DNA of 64,000 nt from Desulfolutivibrio sulfodismutans DSM 3696 (GTDB lineage Bacteria; Desulfobacterota; Desulfovibrionia; Desulfovibrionales; Desulfovibrionaceae): contig NZ_CP045504.1 in NCBI RefSeq assembly GCF_013376455.1, positions 434,001-498,000 on the forward strand, written 5' to 3'. The translations under genes were made by a program, and so were the position numbers. Position 1 is the first letter of the stretch. Each line of letters opens with the position of its first letter. Below are positions 18,490 to 29,372 of this stretch, piece after piece. The notes under the pieces were generated by a model. The model saw only the letters and a program-made list of their open reading frames with translations, had not been told where the DNA came from and searched no databases.

Positions 18490-18613
18490 CCGCAGGGGAA
18501 CCGGAGCCAGGCGGATGGCATCGGTGCGGTTGCCCAGGTAATGTTGTCGTTGTTTGATATGTTAGAAAAAGCATAACGAGATGCGAAGGTCCGGTCAAGG
18601 GCTTTTGAAAACG

Positions 18614-18653
18614 AAAAAAGGCCGGACGTCCAGGGCGGAGCGCGGCCTTTTTG
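18614..18653. terminator. Bidirectional terminator
   Basis: AAAAAGGCCG (18615-18624) pairs with CGGCCTTTTT (18643-18652), with an 18-base loop. Runs of A and T flank both sides, so it can stop transcripts of the minus-strand transporter and any from the left. Confidence 0.8.
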
Positions 18654-18713
18654 TTGGATGCGCAGCAGGGGAGGCGCAGCGGCGGCCTGCGGCGGGCCGC
18701 ACCCGCCAGAATG

Positions 18714-19952
18714 TTAGAGAAAGATGCCCACCACCGCCCCGGTCATGAGCGTGGCCAGGGTGCCCGACACAAGCGACCGCATGCCCAGGGCCACGATCTC
18801 CCCCCGGCGGGACGGGGCCATGGCCCCCATGCCGCCCACCAGGATGCCCAGGCTGCCGAAATTGGCGAAGCCGCACATGGCGTAGGTCATGATCAGCCGG
18901 GAGCGTTCGGACAGCGCGTCGGCGGGAAGCCGCGACATCTCCAGGTAGGCCAAAAGTTCGTTTAAGGCGGTCTTGACGCCCATAAGCATTCCGGCCGTTT
19001 CCGACTCGGCCCAGGGCACGCCGATGACCCACACCAGGGGCCGGAACACGAAGCCGAAGAGGCGCGGCAGGGTCAGCGGCGCGCCCATGACATCGGGCAG
19101 AAGCCCCAGGGCCTGATCCGCCAGGGAGACCATGGCCACCAGCACGATGAGCGTGCCCGTAACGTTGATCAGAAGCCCCATGCCGTCCGAGGCCCCCCGG
19201 GTGATGGCGTCCATGGGCCCGGCGGCCGGGTTGGGCGGAACGATCTCGCCGTCGGTGATTTTTCCGGTCTCGGGGATCATGACCATGGACACCAGGATGG
19301 CCGCCGGGGCGCTGATGATCGAGGCCACCAGGATATGCCCCAGGGCGTCGGGAATGACGTTTTGCAAAAAGGTGGCGTAGAGCACCATGACCGTCCCGGC
19401 GATGGTGGCCATGCCTGCGGTCATGACTGCGAACAGTTCGCTGCGGGTCATGTTCGCCAGATAGGGGCGGATGAACAGCGGGGCCTCCACCATGCCCACG
19501 AAGATGTTGGCGGCCACGCTCACCCCAAGCGCTCCGCCGATGCCCATGGTCTTTTGCAGCGCCTTGGACAGCACTTTGACCAGGACCGGGAGCACCCGCC
19601 AGTAAAAAAGGAGCGACGACAGGGCGCTGACCACCAGGATCAGCGGCAGGGCCTTGCAGGCCATGACGAAGGTGCTGCCCATGCCGGTCTCGGCAAAGGG
19701 CAGGGGGGCGCCGCCAAGGAAGCCGAAGACGAAGGTGGTTCCGGCCGTAGTGGCCGTGTCCAGGGCCATGACCAGCCGGTTCAGGCTCAGGAAGGCGTCC
19801 TTGATGACCGCAATCTTGAGGAATAAAAAGCCCACCGCAAGCTGCAGGACAATGCCCACCACGATGGTCCAAAGCCGCACAGCCCGCCGGTTTTCGCTCA
19901 CAAGCCAGGCGATGAGCACCAATACAAGGAGTCCCGTCGCGCTTTGGACCAT
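18714..19952 (-). CDS. Concentrative nucleoside transporter (CNT / NupC family)
   Basis: 412 residues with about ten membrane segments. Family signatures are GTTFVFGFLGG near residue 70, GVSVAANIFVGMVEAPLFIRPY near 145, MTAGMATIAGTVMVLYA near 175 and YAMCGFANFGSLGILVGG near 365. CNT proteins import nucleosides with H+ or Na+ through the inner membrane. It is the last gene of a minus-strand row with three SGNH hydrolases, 87 bases behind the nearest one, so nucleoside uptake and the SGNH proteins may or may not be linked. A terminator follows. Confidence 0.92.
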   Translation of the reverse strand: MVQSATGLLVLVLIAWLVSENRRAVRLWTIVVGIVLQLAVGFLFLKIAVIKDAFLSLNRLVMALDTATTAGTTFVFGFLGGAPLPFAETGMGSTFVMACKALPLILVVSALSSLLFYWRVLPVLVKVLSKALQKTMGIGGALGVSVAANIFVGMVEAPLFIRPYLANMTRSELFAVMTAGMATIAGTVMVLYATFLQNVIPDALGHILVASIISAPAAILVSMVMIPETGKITDGEIVPPNPAAGPMDAITRGASDGMGLLINVTGTLIVLVAMVSLADQALGLLPDVMGAPLTLPRLFGFVFRPLVWVIGVPWAESETAGMLMGVKTALNELLAYLEMSRLPADALSERSRLIMTYAMCGFANFGSLGILVGGMGAMAPSRRGEIVALGMRSLVSGTLATLMTGAVVGIFL

Positions 19953-20039
19953 GGATGTCCCCGGACGTCCGGCTGGGTGGCCAGGGCAGGGGCGGCCGGT
20001 GCGCTTCTCGCCTGGTGTGGATTCAGGGCTGGTACGCCC

Positions 20040-21119
20040 TCAGGGTCCGTCGCCGCCCGAGGGCAGGACCAGCGTCTGGCCCGGGCGCAGTTTTTTGGGG
20101 TCCAGGCCCTTGTTGGCCCGACGCAGGGCGTCCGGGGCCAGGCCGTGCTGCCTGGCGATGCTGGCCAGGGTCTCGCCGCGTTGGACCACATGTTTTCGGG
20201 GGCCTTCGTCGCTCGGCGGCGGTGCGGCCGTGGCCTGGGGAACGGGAGTGGCCTCCGTCAGGGCCGCAAACAGGGTGTCCCGGGCCGGGGAGGGCGGAAT
20301 GGGCAGGGCGTCTCCCGTGGCGGAGATCACCCGGGCAGCCAGGCGTCTGGCCCCGGCGTCGGTCAGATGCACGCCGTCGCCGGTGCGCAGGGGAATCAGC
20401 GCGCCCGAGAGGTCGCGGGCCGTGGGGGTGTAGGCGTCCTCGGCGTCGGAGAAGGTTTCCCAGGTGTCGATGAAACGGCAGGGGGGGGTGGACCTGCAGG
20501 CCTCGCGCAAGGCGGCGTTTACGGTGCGCAGGGCGGCGCTCAAGGTCCGGTCGGCCATGGGCGGCGCGCCGACCCAGAAGATGGCGGCCTTGGGGTTGGC
20601 GGCAAGGACCATGTCCATGAGGCGTGCGGCGGCGGCGGCATAGGCCGCCTTCCACGGGGTGGAGTCGAAGAGCACCCGCGTGCCGTCGGCGGTGACCAGG
20701 GGCATGGCGTCGTTGGCCCCGATCATGAAAATGGCCACATCCGGCCGGTGGTTGCGCACAAGTTCGGGGAGGGCCTGGGGGAAATCCAGAAGCTCCGGCC
20801 GGGTCAGGCCGCCGCCCACTTTGCCCAGCCGGAACAGACGGCTGCCGTGGCCATTCAGGACGCCGTCCAGGGTGTCGGCCAGGCTGATGGACAGGGAATC
20901 CCCGACGAGAAGGATGACGGGAGGCGCCTTTTTGGGGGCGCGGGTCCGGAAGAGATCCCGGGGGGTCACGTCGACGGGTTCCGGGGAATCGCCGCAACCC
21001 GAGGCGGCCAGCAGCCACAGGCCGACCAGGCAGAGTGTCAGGAAGTGGGAAAATATCGGGGTAAAAGCGGAAAAATGGAGCCATGGCCGGGGACATCGCC
21101 CGCCTGTGGGCCGCGTCAC
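20040..21119 (-). CDS. SGNH (DUF459-like) lipoprotein with C-terminal LysM domain
   Basis: 359 residues from a GTG at 21119 that overlaps the preceding stop (GTGA). A signal segment ends with the lipobox LLAASGC near residue 42, so it should be a lipoprotein. The SGNH fold has ILLVGDSLSISL (nucleophile Ser), FMIGANDA (block III Asn) and GDGVHLTDAG (catalytic Asp/His). The last 50 residues form a LysM domain (HVVQRGETLASIARQHGL, then LRPGQTLVLP), which binds peptidoglycan. It therefore likely acts as a wall-bound esterase or acyltransferase in the periplasm. It is the third gene of a paralogous triplet. Confidence 0.88.
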   Translation of the reverse strand: MTRPTGGRCPRPWLHFSAFTPIFSHFLTLCLVGLWLLAASGCGDSPEPVDVTPRDLFRTRAPKKAPPVILLVGDSLSISLADTLDGVLNGHGSRLFRLGKVGGGLTRPELLDFPQALPELVRNHRPDVAIFMIGANDAMPLVTADGTRVLFDSTPWKAAYAAAAARLMDMVLAANPKAAIFWVGAPPMADRTLSAALRTVNAALREACRSTPPCRFIDTWETFSDAEDAYTPTARDLSGALIPLRTGDGVHLTDAGARRLAARVISATGDALPIPPSPARDTLFAALTEATPVPQATAAPPPSDEGPRKHVVQRGETLASIARQHGLAPDALRRANKGLDPKKLRPGQTLVLPSGGDGP

Positions 21120-22351
21120 GGGGCGCCGGTGGGGGCAGCCGCCGGGCCGCCTGCCGCCGTTTCAGCGGTCTGATCGGATTTTTCCTGGAAGATGGCGTGG
21201 TTGGATGCCTGATCGAAGAACGACTGGGCCAGGATGTCGCCGCCAGCGACGGTGAAATGGATTTTGTCGTTGGCCCGGACCTTGACCTTGGCCCCCTTGT
21301 CGTTTTTCAAAAACGCGGCATAGGTGTCCTCGGGGTCGCACAGGAGGTTCCAGGTGTCCAGAAAGCGGCAGTTGGGATATTTGCCGCATTCCGTGCGCAC
21401 GATTTCGTTCATGGCCTGGGCCTGCCTGGCGTAGGTGGGGTCGCCCATGACCGGCAGTCCGATCCAGAACACCGGCAGATTGCGCTTGGCCGGGATGTCC
21501 AGGAAGGCCTCCATGCGCATGGCGAAGACCTCGCCCCAGGTCTTGTTTTGCGAACCGGGCTCCCGGGGCTTTTCGTTCAAATTGATGTATTTGGCGTCAT
21601 TGGCCCCCATCATGACCACCACCATGGTCGGGGCGTACTTCTCCACGAAGGTCTGGAGCGCGTTTTCCCAATTGAAATATTTGGGGTTGGCCAGACCGCT
21701 GGAGACCTTTCCCTCTTCGATGAGCGTCACGTCCCGGTATTCGTTCACGGCGCGGCGAAGGGACAGGGCCAGGCCGATGGCCAGGGAGTCGCCCACCACC
21801 AGGATCTTGTGGGGCGGTTCCAGGCGGGCCTGGGTCAGAGAGGTGACGGGTTCATGCTCCGGAGATGCGGCAGCGGCGGGGGCGGTGGGCGGCACGGCCG
21901 GATCGGCGGGCATGTCCCCTTCCAGGTCGAGGCGCGGCGTTGCTGTTTCCCGGCCTTCCAGGGCGGCCAGGAGTTGCTCGCGGTCCAGGGGGCGGAGGTC
22001 TTTGATGGTCGGACGGCGTACGGCTTCGTAGGGATCTTCGGCCTCCAGCCGGGGGGCCTGGCCTGCGGTCGTGGCGACATCGCCTGAAACCGGGGTGGAT
22101 TTGTACGTGTCGTGAAAAAACGGGGCCAGGGCGTGGTCCGTCTCGGCCATCAGGTCGGCGGCCGGAGATTTGCGATAGAATTCGCGCACGCTGCGCAGGG
22201 TGCGCAGGATGCGTGAGGAGTGGGTCTCTTCGATACGGTCTTCGGCCCACAGGGTGATTTTTTCGATATTGAAAAAGGCGACCACCACAAAGGCCGTCAC
22301 ATAGATGCAGAAAGCGGGAAACCAGGTGCGCAGGCGGATACGTCGTGTCAT
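21116..22351 (-). CDS. SGNH (DUF459-like) membrane-anchored hydrolase
   Basis: 411 residues. One N-terminal membrane segment (about 10-28) is followed by a long linker rich in Ala/Pro/Glu and then the SGNH domain from about residue 180: ILVVGDSLAIGLALSLRRAV, VVMMGANDAKY, FWIGLPVMGDPTYARQ and ANDKIHFTVAGG. All catalytic blocks (Ser, Asn, Asp-x-x-His) are intact. Family members act on acyl or acetyl groups of envelope polymers; the substrate here is unknown. It is the middle gene of three, 16 bases from the first and overlapping the third by four. Confidence 0.88.
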   Translation of the reverse strand: MTRRIRLRTWFPAFCIYVTAFVVVAFFNIEKITLWAEDRIEETHSSRILRTLRSVREFYRKSPAADLMAETDHALAPFFHDTYKSTPVSGDVATTAGQAPRLEAEDPYEAVRRPTIKDLRPLDREQLLAALEGRETATPRLDLEGDMPADPAVPPTAPAAAASPEHEPVTSLTQARLEPPHKILVVGDSLAIGLALSLRRAVNEYRDVTLIEEGKVSSGLANPKYFNWENALQTFVEKYAPTMVVVMMGANDAKYINLNEKPREPGSQNKTWGEVFAMRMEAFLDIPAKRNLPVFWIGLPVMGDPTYARQAQAMNEIVRTECGKYPNCRFLDTWNLLCDPEDTYAAFLKNDKGAKVKVRANDKIHFTVAGGDILAQSFFDQASNHAIFQEKSDQTAETAAGGPAAAPTGAP

Positions 22352-22367
22352 ATTCTGGTTATCCCGG

Positions 22368-23465
22368 TCATTTTTTCTGACTTATTTCCAGGGTTTGAGC
22401 AACGCCGTCCAGGACGCGGTCGCTGAGCAACCGATACCCGGCCATGGTGAAATGCACCCCGTCCTTGCCCCGCAGTTTCACGGTTTTGCCGCCGAGGTTT
22501 TTTTCTGCGGCAAATTCGCCCTTGTCATCGGAAAAAAGATTCCAGGCGTCGATGAACTGGCAGTTCGGGCCGGATTCGCAGGCCGTGCGCATGGCCGCGT
22601 TGGCCGTCTTGACCCGGGCGTTGAGCCCTGCGTCGCGCATGGGCGGCAGGGCCACCCAGTAGACGGGGACGTTTTTTTTCGCGGCGATGCCCAGGAAATC
22701 CCCGGCCTTCTGGCGGTAACTGTCGGCCCAGACCTCGGTGCCGGGACCGTTTTGGGCGTCGTTGCCGCCGATCATGACCACCAAGGCGTCGGGGCGGGCC
22801 GAGGCCAAAAGATCCTCCAGCGTCTGGCCCCAATTGTGGAACTTGACGTTGTCCAGGCCGCTTGAGGTCTTGCCCTTCTGCTCCAGCCGGATTTCCGTGG
22901 CCCCGCGAAGCGATTCGGCCAAGGTCATGCCGATGCCCACGGCAAAGGAATCCCCCACCACCAGGACCGTGCGGCCCGGGGTTTTCGAGGCTTTGGCCGC
23001 CGTCGGTTCCGGCGCGGGGGCCGCGGCTTTTTCCAGGGACGGCGGCGGGACGGGGGATGTTGGGGACATGGCCTTGCGCCCGGCGTCAGCATCGGGAAGG
23101 GCGGCCAGGGCCTGGGGGGGAGTCGCCTCGGCCTGGGGCGTTTGTGTGGGCCGGACATCGGGAAAAATGACGAAAAGCCGGGCCGCCAGGGGCTCAACCA
23201 GAGGGGAAAAGGGGGAAGGGTCCAGGGCGGGCGGGGCGTCCGACGCCAGGATCGGCCCGCTTGTGTCGGCCGCAGCCTGGGCGTCGGGTTTCAGATCGTC
23301 GGGCTGTCCGGGCGGGGCGACAGGGCGGGACGCCTCGGACTGGCCGGGCTGCCGGGGCGACGTGTCCAGACCCCGCATGCAGCCGATGACCAGGATAATG
23401 GCCAGAGCGGCGGCGAGGCAGACGGCCAGGATGGTGATTCGGGAAGGACGTGGAAGCGCGCGCAT
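22368..23465 (-). CDS. SGNH (DUF459-like) membrane-anchored hydrolase
   Basis: 365 residues from the ATG at 23465, chosen because a good promoter ends eight bases upstream; longer frames have no better site. Residues 10-29 are a membrane segment ending in VIGC, possibly a lipobox. A Pro/Ala-rich linker of about 150 residues leads to the SGNH domain: VLVVGDSFAVGIGMTLAESL, VVMIGGNDAQ, YWVALPPMRDAGLN and KDGVHFTMAGYRLL. The triad is complete. It is the first gene of the triplet. Its promoter suggests a leaderless transcript. Confidence 0.87.
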   Translation of the reverse strand: MRALPRPSRITILAVCLAAALAIILVIGCMRGLDTSPRQPGQSEASRPVAPPGQPDDLKPDAQAAADTSGPILASDAPPALDPSPFSPLVEPLAARLFVIFPDVRPTQTPQAEATPPQALAALPDADAGRKAMSPTSPVPPPSLEKAAAPAPEPTAAKASKTPGRTVLVVGDSFAVGIGMTLAESLRGATEIRLEQKGKTSSGLDNVKFHNWGQTLEDLLASARPDALVVMIGGNDAQNGPGTEVWADSYRQKAGDFLGIAAKKNVPVYWVALPPMRDAGLNARVKTANAAMRTACESGPNCQFIDAWNLFSDDKGEFAAEKNLGGKTVKLRGKDGVHFTMAGYRLLSDRVLDGVAQTLEISQKK

Positions 23466-23472
23466 CCGAATA

Positions 23473-23502
23473 AGTATAGGGCAACGCCGTTTGCCTTGTC
23501 CA
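23473..23502 (-). promoter_or_regulatory. sigma70 promoter of the SGNH operon
   Basis: On the minus strand TGGACA (23502-23497) is followed after 18 bases by TATACT (23478-23473). The expected transcription start is at 23466-23465, right at the ATG at 23465, and there is no Shine-Dalgarno, so the transcript would be leaderless. Confidence 0.6.
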
Positions 23503-23680
23503 GAACCGTGCGACCATCCTTTTGCCCAACCTGCCGGATATGGGAAAAAATGCCGGTTGCCGGGGGCAGGGAAATGTGCTTGTCTCGCCCCCTGCCGCGA
23601 ACGGCCCGGGCCAAGGGGACACGTTTCATGATCAATGCTTCGGCGATCCGGAAATGCGACGCGGACAGGGAGTGATGACA

Positions 23681-24118
23681 ATGCGAAAGAATATGATGGT
23701 CGTTTTGCTTCTGATCGGTGTTATGGCCTTGGCCGGACTGGCCGTGGCCCAGGATTCCCCAGGGGCGAACCCGGGCGCCCCGGTGCAAAAGCCCGCCGTG
23801 ACCGGCCAGGCTCCGGCCGGGGCGGCGAAACCCGCCGCCAGGGAACCGGCCGCAGCCCCGTCCGCTGCCAAGGAACCGGCCGCGGCCCCCTCCGGCGGCC
23901 AGAAAGCGGGCAAGGCCAGCCATCCGGTGCAGGGCAGCCCGGCCGTTACGGCCACGGAACAGCGCTACCAGGAGTATCTGGATCGGGAAAAAAACGCCTC
24001 GGATGCGGCCCTGGCCAAGCAGCGCGGCAAGCTTGAAGACAAGTACAAGGGGTTTGTGCGCACGGTGAAGCCCAAAGGCGCTGCCCGGGACGCTGACAAA
24101 AAAAGCGCCAAGGACTAA
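23681..24118 (+). CDS. Small secreted Ala/Pro/Lys-rich protein
   Basis: 145 residues. The ATG at 23681 stands eight bases after AGGGAG. A signal peptide with a hydrophobic core (VVLLLIGVMALAGLAVA) and the cleavage-like site AQD is followed by a low-complexity repeat, KPAAREPAAAPSAAKEPAAA, and a charged helical end. No enzymatic motif is visible. Such Pro/Ala linkers usually span the periplasm or wall. It is divergent from the SGNH operon and shares its upstream region, which hints at a common envelope role (inference). Confidence 0.6.
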   Translation: MRKNMMVVLLLIGVMALAGLAVAQDSPGANPGAPVQKPAVTGQAPAGAAKPAAREPAAAPSAAKEPAAAPSGGQKAGKASHPVQGSPAVTATEQRYQEYLDREKNASDAALAKQRGKLEDKYKGFVRTVKPKGAARDADKKSAKD

Positions 24119-24167
24119 ACCCCGACGGCCGGGGTGCGCCCTCCCCCGGGGCGGGCAGACGTGTCCG

Positions 24168-26327
24168 CTATAGGACGCGATGCCCGGCCAGAAGCCGGGC
24201 CATGGCCGGGGCCACGTCCGCCAGATCGGCGCAGACCGTAAACCCCGCCCGGCGTAGGCTGGCGAACTTTTCCGCCGCGCCGGAGGCGTTTTCCAAAATG
24301 GCCCCGGCATGCCCGAGCCGCCGTCCGGGCGGGGCGCTCACCCCGGCCACACAGACCGCCACGGGCTTGGGATAGGCCGTGGCCAGGGCGTATTCCGCCA
24401 GCCTCTCCTCGGCGTCCCCGCCGATCTCCCCGAGAATCAACACCGCGTTGACCGCCGGATCGTCCCGCACGGCCTCGGCCAGTTCCAGAAAGCCGAGTCC
24501 CGTGAACGGGTCGCCGCCCATGCCCACGGCCGCGGCCTGGCCGATCCCGGCCGCGCTGAGCCGGGCCGCGGCCTCGTAGGTCAGTGTCCCGCTGCGGGAG
24601 AAGATGGCCACCGGGCCGGGCGTAAAGGGGTCCACGGGCATGATCCCGGCCTTGAACCGCCCGGGGACGATGATCCCCGGGGTGTTGGGGCCGATAAGCA
24701 GGGTTGGGCTGCCCGCCATATCCGACAGGGTGGTGAGCATGGCCAACTGGGGGATGCCCTCGGTGATGCAGGCCACCCGGGGAACCCCGGCCAGGGCGGC
24801 CTCCAGGATCGCGTCCGGGGCGTGGGCCGCCGGAACGAAAATCACGCTGATATCGACCTCGTGGTCGGCCAGGGCCTGTCGCACGCTGTCGTAGACCGGC
24901 ACGCCGTCCACATTTTGTCCGCCCCGAAACGGCGTGACCCCGCACACCACCTGCCCGGCGTTCGCCGCGCCGTAGGCGGCCATGAGTCCGGCATGCAGGC
25001 GGGCGGTTTTGCCGGTTATGCCCTGGATCATGATCCGCATGGGGCGTACGCCTGCGGCCACATCCTTGGGCACAAGGGGCGGCAGGCCGTCCCGGCCCGG
25101 CCCGGCCAGGGGACGCCGGGAGGCGGCGGCACGAAGCGTGCCCCCGGTTCGAGGCGAACCCTGCGGAGCCACGGCCTCGCCGGGACGCACGGCGGGTTCG
25201 ACCTGTCGGCACACCCCGGCCAGCGCCGCCATGGCCGCGTCCATATCCGGAACCACGGCCAGTCCGTCCAGGGCCAGCCCGTGCAGGACGCCAAGGCCTT
25301 CGGCGGCACCGTTTCCGGCCAGACGGGCCACGATGGGCTTTTTGGGCGGACGGCCGTCCAGCACCCGGGCCAGGGCCAGGGCCACTTTTTCGCAGGACAG
25401 GATGCCGCCGAAAAGATTGATGCAGATGACCTGCACCGCCGGGTCGTCGAAAAGGATGGACAGGGCGGCGTCAAGGCCTGCCGCATCGGCCGCGCCGCCC
25501 ACGTCCAGGAAGTTGGCGGCGGGGAATCCGGAGAAGTTGAGGCGGTCCATGGTGGCCATGGCAAGCCCTGCGCCGTTGGCCAGCAGTCCCACGAATCCGG
25601 ACAGCTTGATCAGCGAAAGCCCCCGCTCCCGGGCCAGGGCCTCCACCGGGTCCACCTCCTCGGGGACCGCGAGGTGATCCGCCCCGGGCAACAGGGCCAC
25701 GGCATTGTCGTCGAGCTCCGCCTTGCCGTCCAGGGCCAGAAGCGTCCCATCCGTGGTCAACACCAGGGGGTTGATCTCGGCCAGGAGCAGTCCCTGGCCG
25801 GTCAGGGCGGCGTAGAGGTTTTTGACCAGGGCCTGAAAATCGGGCCAGGCGGGGTACGGCAGCCCCAGGTGGAAAAAGGCGGAACGCGTCTGGGCCGCAG
25901 ACGGGCCGCCCGGCAGGCGCAGATCCTGGATGAGGATATGGCTCCCCCCGGCGTCGCGCTCCACGTCCATCCCGCCGCGTCGGCCTGCGGTCAGGGCCAG
26001 GGACCGGCGGGCGCGGGACACCGCCAGGGACAGATACATCTCCCTCTCGATGGCGGCGGCCGGTTCCAGGCGCAGAAAGGGAGGCTTTTTCCCGGCGATG
26101 GCCAGGGCAAAAAGCCGCGCCGCCGCCGCCTCGAGATCCTGCGGCCCTTCGATGCGCACGATGCCCCCGGCCTTGCCCCGGCCCCCGGCCGCCACCTGGG
26201 ATTTGAGGTACCAGGGCGGGGGGAAGGGCGGGGTGGCCGACTGCCCGGGACGGATCAGGATACCCGGCGGCACGGGGATGCCCGCCGTGGCGAAAATCAG
26301 TTTGCTGGCATGCTCGCAAAGCCGCAT
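24168..26327 (-). CDS. Fused succinyl-CoA synthetase-like protein (beta + alpha subunits)
   Basis: 719 residues joining two subunits that are usually separate. The N-terminal half is the ATP-grasp beta subunit (KSQVAAGGRGKAGGI at about 43, LLAEINPLVLT at about 200, ANFLDVGGAADAAGL, INLFGGILSCEKVA). A linker near 370-430 leads to the alpha half: IMIQGITGKTARLH, CGVTPFRGGQNVDG, GIPQLAML, GPNTPGIIVPG and the phospho-histidine site GHAGAILENASG, which is intact. It makes or uses an acyl-CoA with ATP or GTP and phosphate. It stands 12 bases after korC, so succinyl-CoA for 2-oxoglutarate oxidoreductase is the natural substrate, though related acyl-CoA (acetyl, branched) cannot be excluded. Confidence 0.88.
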   Translation of the reverse strand: MRLCEHASKLIFATAGIPVPPGILIRPGQSATPPFPPPWYLKSQVAAGGRGKAGGIVRIEGPQDLEAAAARLFALAIAGKKPPFLRLEPAAAIEREMYLSLAVSRARRSLALTAGRRGGMDVERDAGGSHILIQDLRLPGGPSAAQTRSAFFHLGLPYPAWPDFQALVKNLYAALTGQGLLLAEINPLVLTTDGTLLALDGKAELDDNAVALLPGADHLAVPEEVDPVEALARERGLSLIKLSGFVGLLANGAGLAMATMDRLNFSGFPAANFLDVGGAADAAGLDAALSILFDDPAVQVICINLFGGILSCEKVALALARVLDGRPPKKPIVARLAGNGAAEGLGVLHGLALDGLAVVPDMDAAMAALAGVCRQVEPAVRPGEAVAPQGSPRTGGTLRAAASRRPLAGPGRDGLPPLVPKDVAAGVRPMRIMIQGITGKTARLHAGLMAAYGAANAGQVVCGVTPFRGGQNVDGVPVYDSVRQALADHEVDISVIFVPAAHAPDAILEAALAGVPRVACITEGIPQLAMLTTLSDMAGSPTLLIGPNTPGIIVPGRFKAGIMPVDPFTPGPVAIFSRSGTLTYEAAARLSAAGIGQAAAVGMGGDPFTGLGFLELAEAVRDDPAVNAVLILGEIGGDAEERLAEYALATAYPKPVAVCVAGVSAPPGRRLGHAGAILENASGAAEKFASLRRAGFTVCADLADVAPAMARLLAGHRVL

Positions 26328-26339
26328 GAGCCCTCCGGG

Positions 26340-26981
26340 TCAATCCTCGACCATGATGTCGGTCAGGTTCATGTCGCCGCGCTTGGCGGCGCTTTCGTCC
26401 TCGCCGTTTTTCAGGTCGATGGGCTGCGCCAGAAGACGCCGGGCCTGGTCATAGCCCAGAGCGAAGGCCTTGAGGTTCACCTTGTGGATTTTTTCCGGCA
26501 GGTTGGCCAGAAGGCTTTTGCGCATCACGTCGCGCTTGGCAAACGGCATGAGAAACGTCACCGCACCAAGCACCACGGTGTTCATGGCCTGGGGAACCTT
26601 GACCCGTTCCAGGGCCAGTTCGGTGAACGGCAGGCCCAAAAAGACGTTGGTGGGGGTCTGTTTGACCAGTCCCGTGTCCACCAAGAGCACGCCTGTTTTT
26701 TTCAGAAGGTGATGGTAGCTGTTGCAGGCCTCCTGGCTTAAGGCCACCAAAAAATCCAGGCGTTCGGTCTTGGGGTAGCTGATGGGGTGGGAACTGACCA
26801 CCAGATCGGCCCGGCTGGAGCCGCCCCGGGCCTCGGGGCCGTAGCTTTGGGTCTGGGTCACCTGATAGCCGTGTCCCAGGGCCAGGGCGTGGCCCAGAAG
26901 CTTGCCCAGGGTCAGGATGCCCTGGCCGCCCAGGCCCGAGAGGCGGATCTCGAAACGGTCAAGCGTTATCTGCTCCTTCAT
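26340..26981 (-). CDS. korC: 2-oxoacid:ferredoxin oxidoreductase, gamma subunit
   Basis: 213 residues from the ATG at 26981, overlapping the beta subunit stop by four bases. Signature: IRLSGLGGQGILTLGKLLG near residue 11, then QTQSYGPEARGGSSRADLV, which is the gamma-subunit CoA-binding pattern, and TNVFLGLPFTELAL. It binds CoA in the complex that converts 2-oxoacids and CoA to acyl-CoA and CO2 with reduction of ferredoxin. The four subunits lie in order delta, alpha, beta, gamma. The end is extended and charged. Confidence 0.9.
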   Translation of the reverse strand: MKEQITLDRFEIRLSGLGGQGILTLGKLLGHALALGHGYQVTQTQSYGPEARGGSSRADLVVSSHPISYPKTERLDFLVALSQEACNSYHHLLKKTGVLLVDTGLVKQTPTNVFLGLPFTELALERVKVPQAMNTVVLGAVTFLMPFAKRDVMRKSLLANLPEKIHKVNLKAFALGYDQARRLLAQPIDLKNGEDESAAKRGDMNLTDIMVED

Positions 26982-27814
26982 GATCCCGCCCCTCCCTTGT
27001 CGGCCAGGGCCTGGCGCATGGCCGCATGGCGCTGTTCCAGTCCCGGTTCGTCGTTCTCCACAAAGATTCCCATGGGGATTTTCCCGGCCTTGTCGTCGAG
27101 CTTGTCGTAGACCTCCCGGGGAACCACATGGTCTTTGAGCCACTGAAACATCTCAACAGGCGAGCGGAATTTGTTGCCCCGGCCGTACTGGGTGAAACAC
27201 GGGGTCAAGACCTCCACCAGATTGAATCCCGGGCGGCTCATGGCCCGTTGCAAGAGCCCGTCCAGGGCCTTGGCGTGGAAGACCGTGCCCCGGTACACCC
27301 CGTTGGCTCCGGCGGCCCTGGCCATCTCCACCACGTCGAAGGATTTTTCCATCTGCCCCTGGGGGCTGGTGTGGGTGTAGGAGCCAAACGGGGTGGTGGG
27401 CGAGCATTGGCCGCCGGTCATGCCGTAGATGAAGTTGTTTACGACCAGGGCCGTGACCCCGATGTTGCGGCGCGCGGCGTGGATCAGATGGTTGCCGCCG
27501 ATGGACAGGGCGTCGCCGTCGCCCATGACCGTGAGCACCCGCAGGTGCGGGCTGGCCATCTTGATGCCCGTGGACAGGGTGAGCGCCCGGCCATGGGTGG
27601 CGTGCACGGTGTTGAAGTCCACGTAGGCGGCGATGCGGCCCGAGCAGCCGATGCCGGCCACCACGGCCATGTCGTCCTTGGGGATGCCTAAGGCGTGGAC
27701 GCTGCGCACCAGCGACCCCAGGACGATGCCGATGCCGCAGCCGGGACAGAAGACCAGGGGGAACTTCTTGTTGTGGCGCAGGTACTGGTGGATGAGTTGG
27801 GTGACTTCGGCCAT
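26978..27814 (-). CDS. korB: 2-oxoacid:ferredoxin oxidoreductase, beta subunit
   Basis: 278 residues with the thiamine pyrophosphate binding region: CPGCGIGIVLGSLVR near residue 23, VAGIGCSGRIAAYVDFNT, HGRALTLSTGIKMA, MGDGDALSIGGNH and NFIYGMTGGQCSPTT. TPP and Mg bind at the GDGD motif; Cys of CPGC and others are expected to hold an Fe-S cluster. It is the catalytic subunit of the complex. The Kor type (2-oxoglutarate) is favoured by the neighbouring succinyl-CoA synthetase, but a branched-chain (Vor) or indolepyruvate (Ior) enzyme is not ruled out. Confidence 0.92.
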   Translation of the reverse strand: MAEVTQLIHQYLRHNKKFPLVFCPGCGIGIVLGSLVRSVHALGIPKDDMAVVAGIGCSGRIAAYVDFNTVHATHGRALTLSTGIKMASPHLRVLTVMGDGDALSIGGNHLIHAARRNIGVTALVVNNFIYGMTGGQCSPTTPFGSYTHTSPQGQMEKSFDVVEMARAAGANGVYRGTVFHAKALDGLLQRAMSRPGFNLVEVLTPCFTQYGRGNKFRSPVEMFQWLKDHVVPREVYDKLDDKAGKIPMGIFVENDEPGLEQRHAAMRQALADKGGAGS

Positions 27815-27818
27815 GGCG

Positions 27819-28964
27819 TCACGCGATTTCCTTGAGTATTTGCGACGGGGTGATGATCTGGCCGTCGACGCGGTTGATCGTCCGGATGGTGGTGATGCCG
27901 CAGTTGACCCTTTTGACCTCGCGCGAGATCTGCCCCATGTTCATTTCCGGAACCAGCACCAGCTTGCAGGTGCGAAGGAGCTTTTCCACATGGGGACGCG
28001 GGAAGGGGAACAGGGTCTTTAAGGACAAAAGCCCGGCCTTGACCCCGGCCTCCCGGGCCTGGCGCACGGCCAGTCGGGCCGAGCGGGCCACGGAGCCGTA
28101 GGCGATGACCAGGGTGTCGGCATCCTCGGTCTGGTCGTGGTCCACGATCTGGATGTCGTGGAAAAAACGGTCGATCTTGCGAAACATGCGTTCGGTCACG
28201 GCCTTGACCTCGTCCGGGCGCGAGGTGGGAAAACCCAGGGGGTCGTGGGTCAGGCCCGTGACATGGAACCGGTAGCCCGTGCCTATGGGCGGCATGGGCG
28301 GCACGCCGCGCACGGTCTCCTCGTAGGGCTTATACCATTCCGGGGGCATGGTGGGCAGCAGGCGGCTTAAGACCTCAAACTCGCCGGGCCGGGGGATCTC
28401 GATCTTTTCCCGGGTGTGGGCCGTGATTTCATCAAGGAGCAGGATGACCGGGGTGCGGTATTTTTCGGCGTAGTTGAAGGCGGTGATGGTCATTTCCAGG
28501 CATTCGCGCACGTCGGCGGCGGAAAAGACGATGATGGGGTGGTCGCCGTGGGCCCCCCAGCGGGCCTGCTGCACGTCGCCCTGGCCGGGCGAAGTGGGCA
28601 GGCCGGTGCTTGAGCCGCCGCGCATGACGTTGACGATGACCAGCGGGGTTTCGGTCATGCAGGCGTAGCCGATCTGCTCCTGCATGAGCGAGAATCCCGG
28701 CCCGGAGGTGGCGGTCATGACCTTGCGCCCGGCCAGGGACGCGCCGATGATGGCCCCGGCCGAGGCGATCTCGTCCTCCATCTGGAGAAACACCCCGTTT
28801 TCGACATGGGGCAGGCGTCTGGCCATGACCTCCATGATTTCCGTGGACGGGGTGATGGGATAGCCCGCGTAGAACGAGCACCCGGCCAGAAGCGCGCCTT
28901 CGGCCACGGCCTCGTTGCCGAGCAGAAAGGCCTCGGTTCGTTTTTTTCGCTGCATGGCGCTCAT
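27819..28964 (-). CDS. korA: 2-oxoacid:ferredoxin oxidoreductase, alpha subunit
   Basis: 381 residues with the pyrimidine-binding domain features LLAGCSFYAGYPITPSTEIM near residue 25, MEDEIASAGAIIGASLAGRK with the catalytic-type Glu, TATSGPGFSLMQEQIG and RGGSSTGLPTSPGQGD. A transketolase-C-like part follows with VIAYGSVARSARLAVR and LFPFPRPHVEKLL. It pairs with the beta subunit to bind TPP. It lies five bases before the beta gene in transcription order. Confidence 0.93.
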   Translation of the reverse strand: MSAMQRKKRTEAFLLGNEAVAEGALLAGCSFYAGYPITPSTEIMEVMARRLPHVENGVFLQMEDEIASAGAIIGASLAGRKVMTATSGPGFSLMQEQIGYACMTETPLVIVNVMRGGSSTGLPTSPGQGDVQQARWGAHGDHPIIVFSAADVRECLEMTITAFNYAEKYRTPVILLLDEITAHTREKIEIPRPGEFEVLSRLLPTMPPEWYKPYEETVRGVPPMPPIGTGYRFHVTGLTHDPLGFPTSRPDEVKAVTERMFRKIDRFFHDIQIVDHDQTEDADTLVIAYGSVARSARLAVRQAREAGVKAGLLSLKTLFPFPRPHVEKLLRTCKLVLVPEMNMGQISREVKRVNCGITTIRTINRVDGQIITPSQILKEIA

Positions 28965-28970
28965 GATGAC

Positions 28971-29303
28971 CTACGCTTTCTTCGGTTCGGGGGATTGGGC
29001 GGCTTCCGATGGGGGCGACGCGGCCGCGCCCGGTGGGGCGCAGGGGGTGGCCGCCGTTCCGGGAATCGGCTCGGGGAAGGAGGAACCCATGCCGTTTCTG
29101 GGCCGGACCACGATGGCGAAGTCCGGACAGTGCAATTCACAAAAACCGCAATTTATGCATTCGTCTTCGCGGTCCACCCGGGCCTTGCCCTGGTGGTCGA
29201 TGCGCAGCACTTTTTTTGGACAAAACGCGGCGCAGATGCCGCAGCCCTTGCACCAGTCGGGATAGATGACAACAGTGTACAGCGGTTTTCGTTTTGCGGT
29301 CAT
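28971..29303 (-). CDS. korD: 2-oxoacid:ferredoxin oxidoreductase, delta (ferredoxin) subunit
   Basis: 110 residues from the ATG at 29303 (MTAKRKPLY). Two [4Fe-4S] motifs are present, CKGCGICAAFCPKK and CINCGFCELHCPDFA, the usual eight-Cys ferredoxin arrangement, followed by an Ala/Pro-rich tail. It passes electrons from the TPP subunit to soluble ferredoxin. As the first gene of the operon it follows the promoter at 29344-29372 by about 35 bases of leader. The Pro-rich tail (from about residue 75) is longer than in most delta subunits. Confidence 0.9.
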   Translation of the reverse strand: MTAKRKPLYTVVIYPDWCKGCGICAAFCPKKVLRIDHQGKARVDREDECINCGFCELHCPDFAIVVRPRNGMGSSFPEPIPGTAATPCAPPGAAASPPSEAAQSPEPKKA

Positions 29304-29343
29304 GTCGGGAAGCCTAGTTGGAAGTTGCTGTAAAATTCCGACG

Positions 29344-29372
29344 AATTTACCAGGGTTACAAGGCCAAGGCAA
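29344..29372 (-). promoter_or_regulatory. Candidate promoter of the kor-suc operon
   Basis: On the minus strand TTGCCT (29372-29367), a 17-base spacer and TAAATT (29349-29344), each matching sigma70 in four of six positions. It lies 40 bases upstream of the korD start. Confidence 0.4.

Follow-up and report, generated by a model that had tools for sequence, protein, structure and literature searches.

Alginate acetylation by AlgI and AlgJ/AlgX combines a membrane-bound O-acyltransferase (MBOAT) with more than one SGNH protein in a single pathway. Closest to the genes described here is the PatA–PatB system (with Ape1) of Neisseria gonorrhoeae and Campylobacter jejuni, in which PatB is the Gram-negative O-acetyltransferase of cell-wall peptidoglycan. 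According to PMC12148441, which also cites AlgIJFX, PatB of N. gonorrhoeae moves acetyl from a peptide of gonococcal PatA to a peptidoglycan mimic, and the motif FXYXXF of C. jejuni PatA is shown to be auto-acetylated on its Tyr. PMC9487903 equates the DUF459 family with the PatB family. We analyzed a 64,000-nucleotide stretch of Desulfolutivibrio sulfodismutans DSM 3696 (the window; contig C1, 434001–498000, of a 4.44 Mb genome), in which three consecutive minus-strand genes (23465–20040), transcribed in the order C, B, A, encode proteins of the same SGNH family and fold as PatB.

The trio resembles PatA–PatB in its Ser–Asp–His triad and block III Asn, in the membrane anchor of B, and in the presence of an MBOAT with the FXYXXF motif in the genome. 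It differs in that several DUF459 proteins are found where one PatB has been described, in that its genes are unlinked to PatA, and in its lipoprotein forms, its LysM domain, its modest identity to PatB and its scores below the NCBIfam cut-off for PatB. OatA, an SGNH domain fused to AT3, is likewise an SGNH wall acetyltransferase, and the family PF19040 matched A (38.8 bits) and B (29.8) above its cut-off of 27 and C (24.6) below it; however, these matches were far weaker than those to DUF459, the trio has no AT3 domain, and its partner is a separate MBOAT. We conclude that A, B and C are probably the periplasmic half of an expanded, two-locus PatA–PatB system for peptidoglycan O-acetylation, with B as the direct partner of PatA. 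The chemistry is known; according to our literature search, the architecture is new, comprising members of the PatB family that bear lipid anchors and domains for wall binding, in 5–9 copies per genome.

Family, active site and anchors of the trio

A preliminary description of this locus had proposed three tandem SGNH genes with complete, DUF459-like active sites, which is borne out by both the family scores and the catalytic residues. DUF459 (PF04311) matched A, B and C with 166, 208 and 185 bits, respectively (cut-off 27.2; E-values 8e-49 to 8e-62), and the general GDSL family PF13472 also matched above its cut-off, more weakly (40–62 bits). Each protein holds the GDS of block I, the Asn of block III and the DxxH of block V, all invariant in 10 aligned DUF459 proteins. 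A profile of 10 DUF459 proteins from this and related genomes gave E-values of 1e-43 to 2e-42 for four solved PatB/Cj0610c sequences and of 7e-7 for the protein ranked after them, and the best PDB chain by sequence for each member of the trio was PatB or Cj0610c (9e-15 for that of A). For B and C as modeled by AlphaFold (mean predicted local distance difference test score, pLDDT, 77 and 76; mostly >90 in the SGNH domains), the top Foldseek matches were five PatB/Cj0610c chains (E-values 9e-17 to 2e-14), and the next match beyond them came at 1e-8 for B and 9e-10 for C. B and C are thus close to PatB by fold and sequence, and A by sequence, at an identity of 20–27% between B or C and the solved PatB domains. 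One of the solved structures among these PatB-type matches, 8gr2, is called an esterase in its depositors' title. The comparison with PatB-type structures suggested earlier therefore found its target, whereas that with AlgX/AlgJ did not: the ALGX family (PF16822), to which those proteins belong, matched none of the three proteins up to E 0.1, and no AlgX/AlgJ entry was found among the 50 structural matches listed for B or the 50 listed for C, leading us to reject this identity.

The trio was found in 11 genomes, three of the window's genus (G000, the window's own; G001; G002) and eight of Solidesulfovibrio type (G027, G450–G456), and the order C–B–A was kept in all 11. In a tree of DUF459 proteins (87 of 104 rows, with 17 outgroup rows omitted), A formed one clade (support 99/98), as did B (98/95), whereas C did so only when joined with a fourth paralogue, F (99/99). 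Because the order is kept and these clades are recovered, the grouping of the three genes is not due to chance.

The differing anchors of the preliminary description were also recovered: a lipobox VIGC in C, a transmembrane helix in B, and a lipobox ASGC with a C-terminal LysM domain in A. The LysM of A (PF01476, 48.8 bits against a cut-off of 20.9) was present in all 11 orthologues, and its lipobox satisfied the pattern rule in 10, the eleventh having Pro at −3. The anchor of B is a single N-terminal hydrophobic helix without a lipobox. The lipobox of C, which had been proposed as a possibility, held in the window's genus (3/3); of the eight Solidesulfovibrio-type C proteins, five had none by the pattern rule and the other three had a doubtful match inside a hydrophobic stretch.

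The loop after block III has 9 residues in all 11 C proteins and at least 14 in every other aligned row. PMC12148441 proposes two hairpin wings as the PatA-binding face of PatB, and from the alignment we take the shortened loop of C to be one of them. Placed by reading the alignment, the first putative wing comprises 18 residues in A, 19 in B and 9 in C (17 in the references), with no strand there in the B model, and the second comprises 32–33 residues in A, B and C (32 in the references). The same source names Ser or Asn in place of Gly in block II as a trait of transferases, and gives Leu250 and Ile304 as the hydrophobic wall of N. gonorrhoeae PatB. Block II has Ser in B, in C and in the eight A proteins outside the window's genus, and Gly in the three A proteins within it; the hydrophobic-wall positions hold Leu and Val in A and C, and Tyr and Ile in B. 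Because Gly, Ala or Asp also occurs in block II of MBOAT-adjacent DUF459 proteins elsewhere, the Gly of A offers only a hint as to whether A is a hydrolase or a transferase, and we rejected it as sufficient evidence for calling A an esterase.

PatA-type MBOATs and the kinship of B

The preliminary description had noted no MBOAT nearby and had suggested searching for an unlinked one that co-occurs. Its observation stands for the window, in which a PatA profile matched no open reading frame at E 1, but not for the genome, in which the suggested search found a PatA-type MBOAT. Of the three MBOAT matches in the genome (at 1.71, 2.16 and 3.70 Mb, with the window at 0.434–0.498 Mb), the PatA-type one (C1:3694935–3696380; L036:6933–8381) ends in FIYFSF and lies 3.2 Mb from the trio along a 4.39 Mb contig, or nearer if the contig is circular. 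It is flanked by two further DUF459 proteins, D (410 amino acids) and E (814 amino acids, with seven LysM domains), which together with the trio make up the five DUF459 genes of this genome. E had six to seven LysM domains in eight of 10 rows, the other two rows being cut by a contig end. The two remaining MBOATs each have an ALGX-family neighbor and fall in a separate clade. All 13 Desulfovibrionaceae PatA-type MBOATs examined end in FIYF[SQAR]F, which matches the motif auto-acetylated in C. jejuni PatA.

The PatA-profile score was insufficient as an identifier on its own, in that Neisseria-like MBOATs scored 279–306 bits, like the ALGX-linked ones, and we therefore used a tree. In this quick tree, which omits pieces shorter than 300 amino acids, duplicates and overlapping loci (five short duplicate rows, marked x, were kept), the PatA-type MBOATs formed one group (SH-aLRT 96) apart from the ALGX-linked ones; the ALGX neighbor was checked for two (L034 and L035) of the eight rows labeled 'ALGX-linked or other'. 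When each target, or the whole genus for targets in the window's genus, was left out of the profile, true PatA-type MBOATs scored 471–715 bits and the two ALGX-linked MBOATs of this genome 256–303.

Among 59 genomes, including the window's own, 10 had some DUF459 match at E 0.001, of which six reached at least 200 bits and four were marginal. In the same six, a PatA-type MBOAT scored at least 750 bits, whereas the other 53 reached 366 at most; at E 1e-20, an MBOAT of some kind was matched in 25 of the 59. Ten of the 11 trio genomes have PatA flanked on one or both sides by DUF459 genes, namely E, and D as well where the contig reached that far. These 10 genomes have 5–9 DUF459 copies each (five in the window's own, 6–9 in the seven of Solidesulfovibrio type), and the remaining trio genome, the metagenome-assembled genome (MAG) G450, has three. 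By comparison, DUF459 was found in 55 of 398 Pseudomonadota genomes (E 1e-15), 52 of which had one gene and three had two, as read from the listed pieces, such that the family is strongly expanded here. None of the 30 Pseudomonadota loci fetched had LysM in its DUF459 protein when searched with a profile of the repeats in E, although distant LysM repeats may escape this profile, and a search of the open-licence literature for PatB proteins with LysM returned only a lysozyme review. Across a sample of the phylum, DUF459 was found in 11 of 395 genomes (E 1e-10), six of which belong to another family, f87; five of these six carry an MBOAT of the PatA group, on another contig, and in five f87 proteins the N-terminal anchor region aligned with that of B (hhalign probability 88%). 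A similar sharing of the B-type N-terminal region with Acidimicrobiia-type DUF459 proteins was not supported (hhalign 15%).

The strongest reason for regarding B as the partner of PatA is its kinship. B and A sit in two different deep DUF459 lineages, and the sister clade of all 11 B proteins (100/97) consists of anchored DUF459 proteins whose genes immediately follow that of a PatA-type MBOAT; they come from Fundidesulfovibrio agrisoli (G011, identical to G458) and the Desulfovibrionaceae MAG G457. Both genomes have a single cluster in the order PatA, transmembrane-anchored DUF459 and lipoprotein DUF459, and their lipoprotein DUF459s fall in the clade of A, D and E (99/98). A further cluster, in the genome G028 (L043:7295–12216), encodes PatA, an anchored DUF459, a lipoprotein DUF459, a protein of the lytic-transglycosylase type with a DPBB domain, and a secreted DUF459; its DUF459 proteins form long branches outside both the sister clade of B and the A/D/E clade.

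A proposed two-locus acetylation system and its alternatives

By homology, the PatA-type MBOAT would take acetyl from acetyl-CoA and load it onto the Tyr of its C-terminal FIYFSF. B, kept beside PatA by its transmembrane helix, would receive the acetyl on the Ser of block I and hand it to O6 of N-acetylmuramic acid in peptidoglycan, and A (with its lipid anchor and LysM), C (with its lipid anchor and shortened loop), D and E would act elsewhere in the wall or at different stages of it. We infer acetyl as the group, transfer in place of hydrolysis, a division of labor, and peptidoglycan as the acceptor and substrate, the last mainly from LysM and the family. The LysM domains of A and E suggest targeting to the assembled wall, and the anchors make it plausible that the members of the trio work at different envelope depths. 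The earlier proposal of envelope de- or transacylases, perhaps in one pathway, thus fits in part, as a transacylase set, given PatB-family proteins with different anchors and one co-occurring PatA-type MBOAT; B and C are less likely to be de-acylases, a role that is conceivable for A, the block II residue of which is the Gly of ordinary SGNH hydrolases.

Several observations weigh against a PatA–PatB system of this kind. At the family level, general GDSL hydrolase families also matched the trio above their cut-offs, and scores against NF045704, the equivalog model for PatB, were only 54, 81 and 77 bits for A, B and C (cut-off 580), for which reason we call the trio PatB-family proteins and not certified PatBs. 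Each protein also departs from PatB in one feature: A of the window's genus lacks the Ser or Asn of block II (3/3), B has Tyr and not Leu at one hydrophobic-wall position (11/11), and C lacks ~10 residues of its putative PatA-facing hairpin loop (11/11). None of the 11 genomes has the trio beside PatA, and G450 (3.1 Mb) shows no PatA-type MBOAT at all (best score 312 bits), which may reflect the incompleteness of this MAG. Four further relatives with marginal DUF459 matches (22–27 bits; three counted above the family cut-off, two of these only with neighboring pieces) have no PatA-type MBOAT, one of the six f87 genomes (G432) has DUF459 without one, and Methylobacterium has DUF459 with only distant MBOATs (best score at most 297 bits). 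One MBOAT of the PatA group (L130) ends in FIYFQY and not FXYXXF, and in other phyla the MBOATs beside DUF459 fall outside that group, across the tree and nearer the ALGX-linked ones. Moreover, the six genomes with DUF459 supplied the sequences of the PatA profile, which makes the co-occurrence partly circular, and these relatives are not independent. Finally, a search of the open-licence literature found no data on acetylation of Desulfovibrio peptidoglycan.

There are three alternatives. The trio might O-acylate another envelope polymer, such as lipopolysaccharide, exopolysaccharide or capsule, as MBOAT–SGNH pairs act on many polymers (PMC12148441); the low identity to the solved PatB domains and the lack of a wall enzyme among seven scanned neighbor genes of the trio would fit this possibility, but we consider it unlikely in view of the LysM domains in A and in E, the fact that every nearest solved structure is PatB/Cj0610c, the lytic-transglycosylase-type DPBB protein in the G028 operon, and a UppP/BacA gene upstream of the trio in three Solidesulfovibrio-type genomes. 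Nor does it seem likely that the set mixes writers and an eraser, with B and C transferring acetyl and A removing it in the manner of Ape1, which carries CBM35 in Neisseria. A of the window's genus does have the block II Gly of ordinary hydrolases in place of the transferase Ser or Asn and a wall-binding domain like that of Ape1 (both comparisons drawn from PMC12148441), and in family f87, from this phylum, DUF459 occurs joined to a PF00756 esterase; against this, eight of the 11 A orthologues have Ser, the Gly recurs in MBOAT-adjacent DUF459 proteins of other phyla (L072, L075, L085 and L086), and A retains the Leu and Val of the hydrophobic wall. We give very little credence to the idea that the three are redundant duplicates without a division of labor, as the tandem layout and the second, complete trio of S. 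alcoholivorans might suggest, because the anchor of B, the LysM of A and the short loop of C are each kept across two genome groups and B and A belong to different deep lineages.

Within the PatA–PatB assignment, a more elaborate arrangement is possible, albeit doubtful: a layered or relay machine in which PatA would feed B, and the lipid-anchored, LysM-bearing A and E would acetylate mature cross-linked wall far from the inner membrane, either because B passes acetyl on to them or because they reach PatA through long linkers. PMC12148441 leaves open whether nascent or mature peptidoglycan is the target of PatAB, and judges the mature wall an unlikely target of PatB, given that the enzyme has no carbohydrate-binding domain. 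A, with one LysM, and E, with six to seven, are PatB-family proteins that do have a wall-binding domain, kept across two genome groups, and they offer a candidate counter-example against which to examine that argument. With paralogues that can be compared within one organism, the question of nascent or mature wall becomes testable. If a layered arrangement proved true, it would to our knowledge, after a search of the literature, be the first PatB-family system built for the mature sacculus.

Locus layout and related observations

The gap between C and B is 16 nucleotides, and B and A overlap by 4, the GTG start of A overlapping the stop of B (Table 1). The promoter match upstream of C is the only sigma-70-like one in 18600–24200; shuffled sequences averaged 0.5, which makes it weak. 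If it is used, the transcript of C would be near-leaderless.

Table 1. Features of the DUF459 trio, in window coordinates.
Feature	Position	Strand	Remarks
Gene C	22368..23465	-	365 aa; DUF459/PatB-family; N-terminal hydrophobic segment ending in lipobox VIGC
C signal/lipobox segment, residues 1–29 (Cys29)	23379..23465	-	
C DUF459 (SGNH) domain	22407..22970	-	Converted from genome coordinates; AlphaFold pLDDT mostly >90
Gene B	21116..22351	-	411 aa; DUF459/PatB-family; N-terminal transmembrane anchor
B transmembrane helix (model residues 3–27)	22271..22345	-	AlphaFold model; hydropathy
B DUF459 (SGNH) domain	21212..21808	-	
Gene A	20040..21119	-	359 aa; GTG start; DUF459/PatB-family lipoprotein, C-terminal LysM
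A DUF459 (SGNH) domain; block II residue Gly	20322..20915	-	
A LysM domain (residues 310–353)	20061..20192	-	PF01476, 6.6e-13
Sigma-70-like promoter match TGGACA-18-TATACT	23473..23502	-	Ends 7 nt before ATG of C; weak

Upstream of the trio and on the same strand lie 2-oxoacid:ferredoxin oxidoreductase genes and an ATP-grasp-type acyl-CoA ligase gene (24168–29372). These genes and nupC adjoin the trio in the window's genus (2/2 relatives) and were not found at the eight Solidesulfovibrio-type trio loci (E 1e-10), and we rejected a functional link between them and the trio; a relative of nupC lies ~7 kb from the PatA operon of F. agrisoli (L055), on the opposite strand. UppP was likewise rejected as a general wall context of the trio, being beside it in only three genomes and at 0.73 Mb in this one. 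The small product of a divergent gene (23678–24118) is rich in Ala, Pro and Lys, seems to carry a signal peptide and had no family match above any cut-off; the gene is kept in the two genus relatives.

Unusual DUF459 proteins and loci were seen in other lineages. In f87, all four proteins scanned of six fetched (L119, L120, L121 and L124; for example L120:5024–7234) consist of DUF459 fused to a PF00756 esterase domain, three of them with a B-like N-terminal anchor; these may be writer–eraser fusions. In the L119 protein, whose gene is also that of L087, DUF459 occurs twice, and the catalytic residues of the first copy are altered. Actinomycetota MAGs, of Acidimicrobiia type and other, encode DUF459 beside a PatA-like MBOAT (L056, L058–L066, L071, L074, L076–L079, L082 and L084), which runs counter to the statement in PMC9487903 that every DUF459 member comes from Gram-negative bacteria. 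A PatA-like MBOAT and DUF459 were also found in a MAG labeled Borreliella garinii (L083, isolate SulCav), a label that is probably misassigned. The trio is present in S. aerotolerans DSM 16695, and in S. alcoholivorans DSM 5433 (NZ_JNJA01000003.1; L048 and L049) it occurs twice on one contig, inverted and ~235 kb apart, and both copies give equal match scores.

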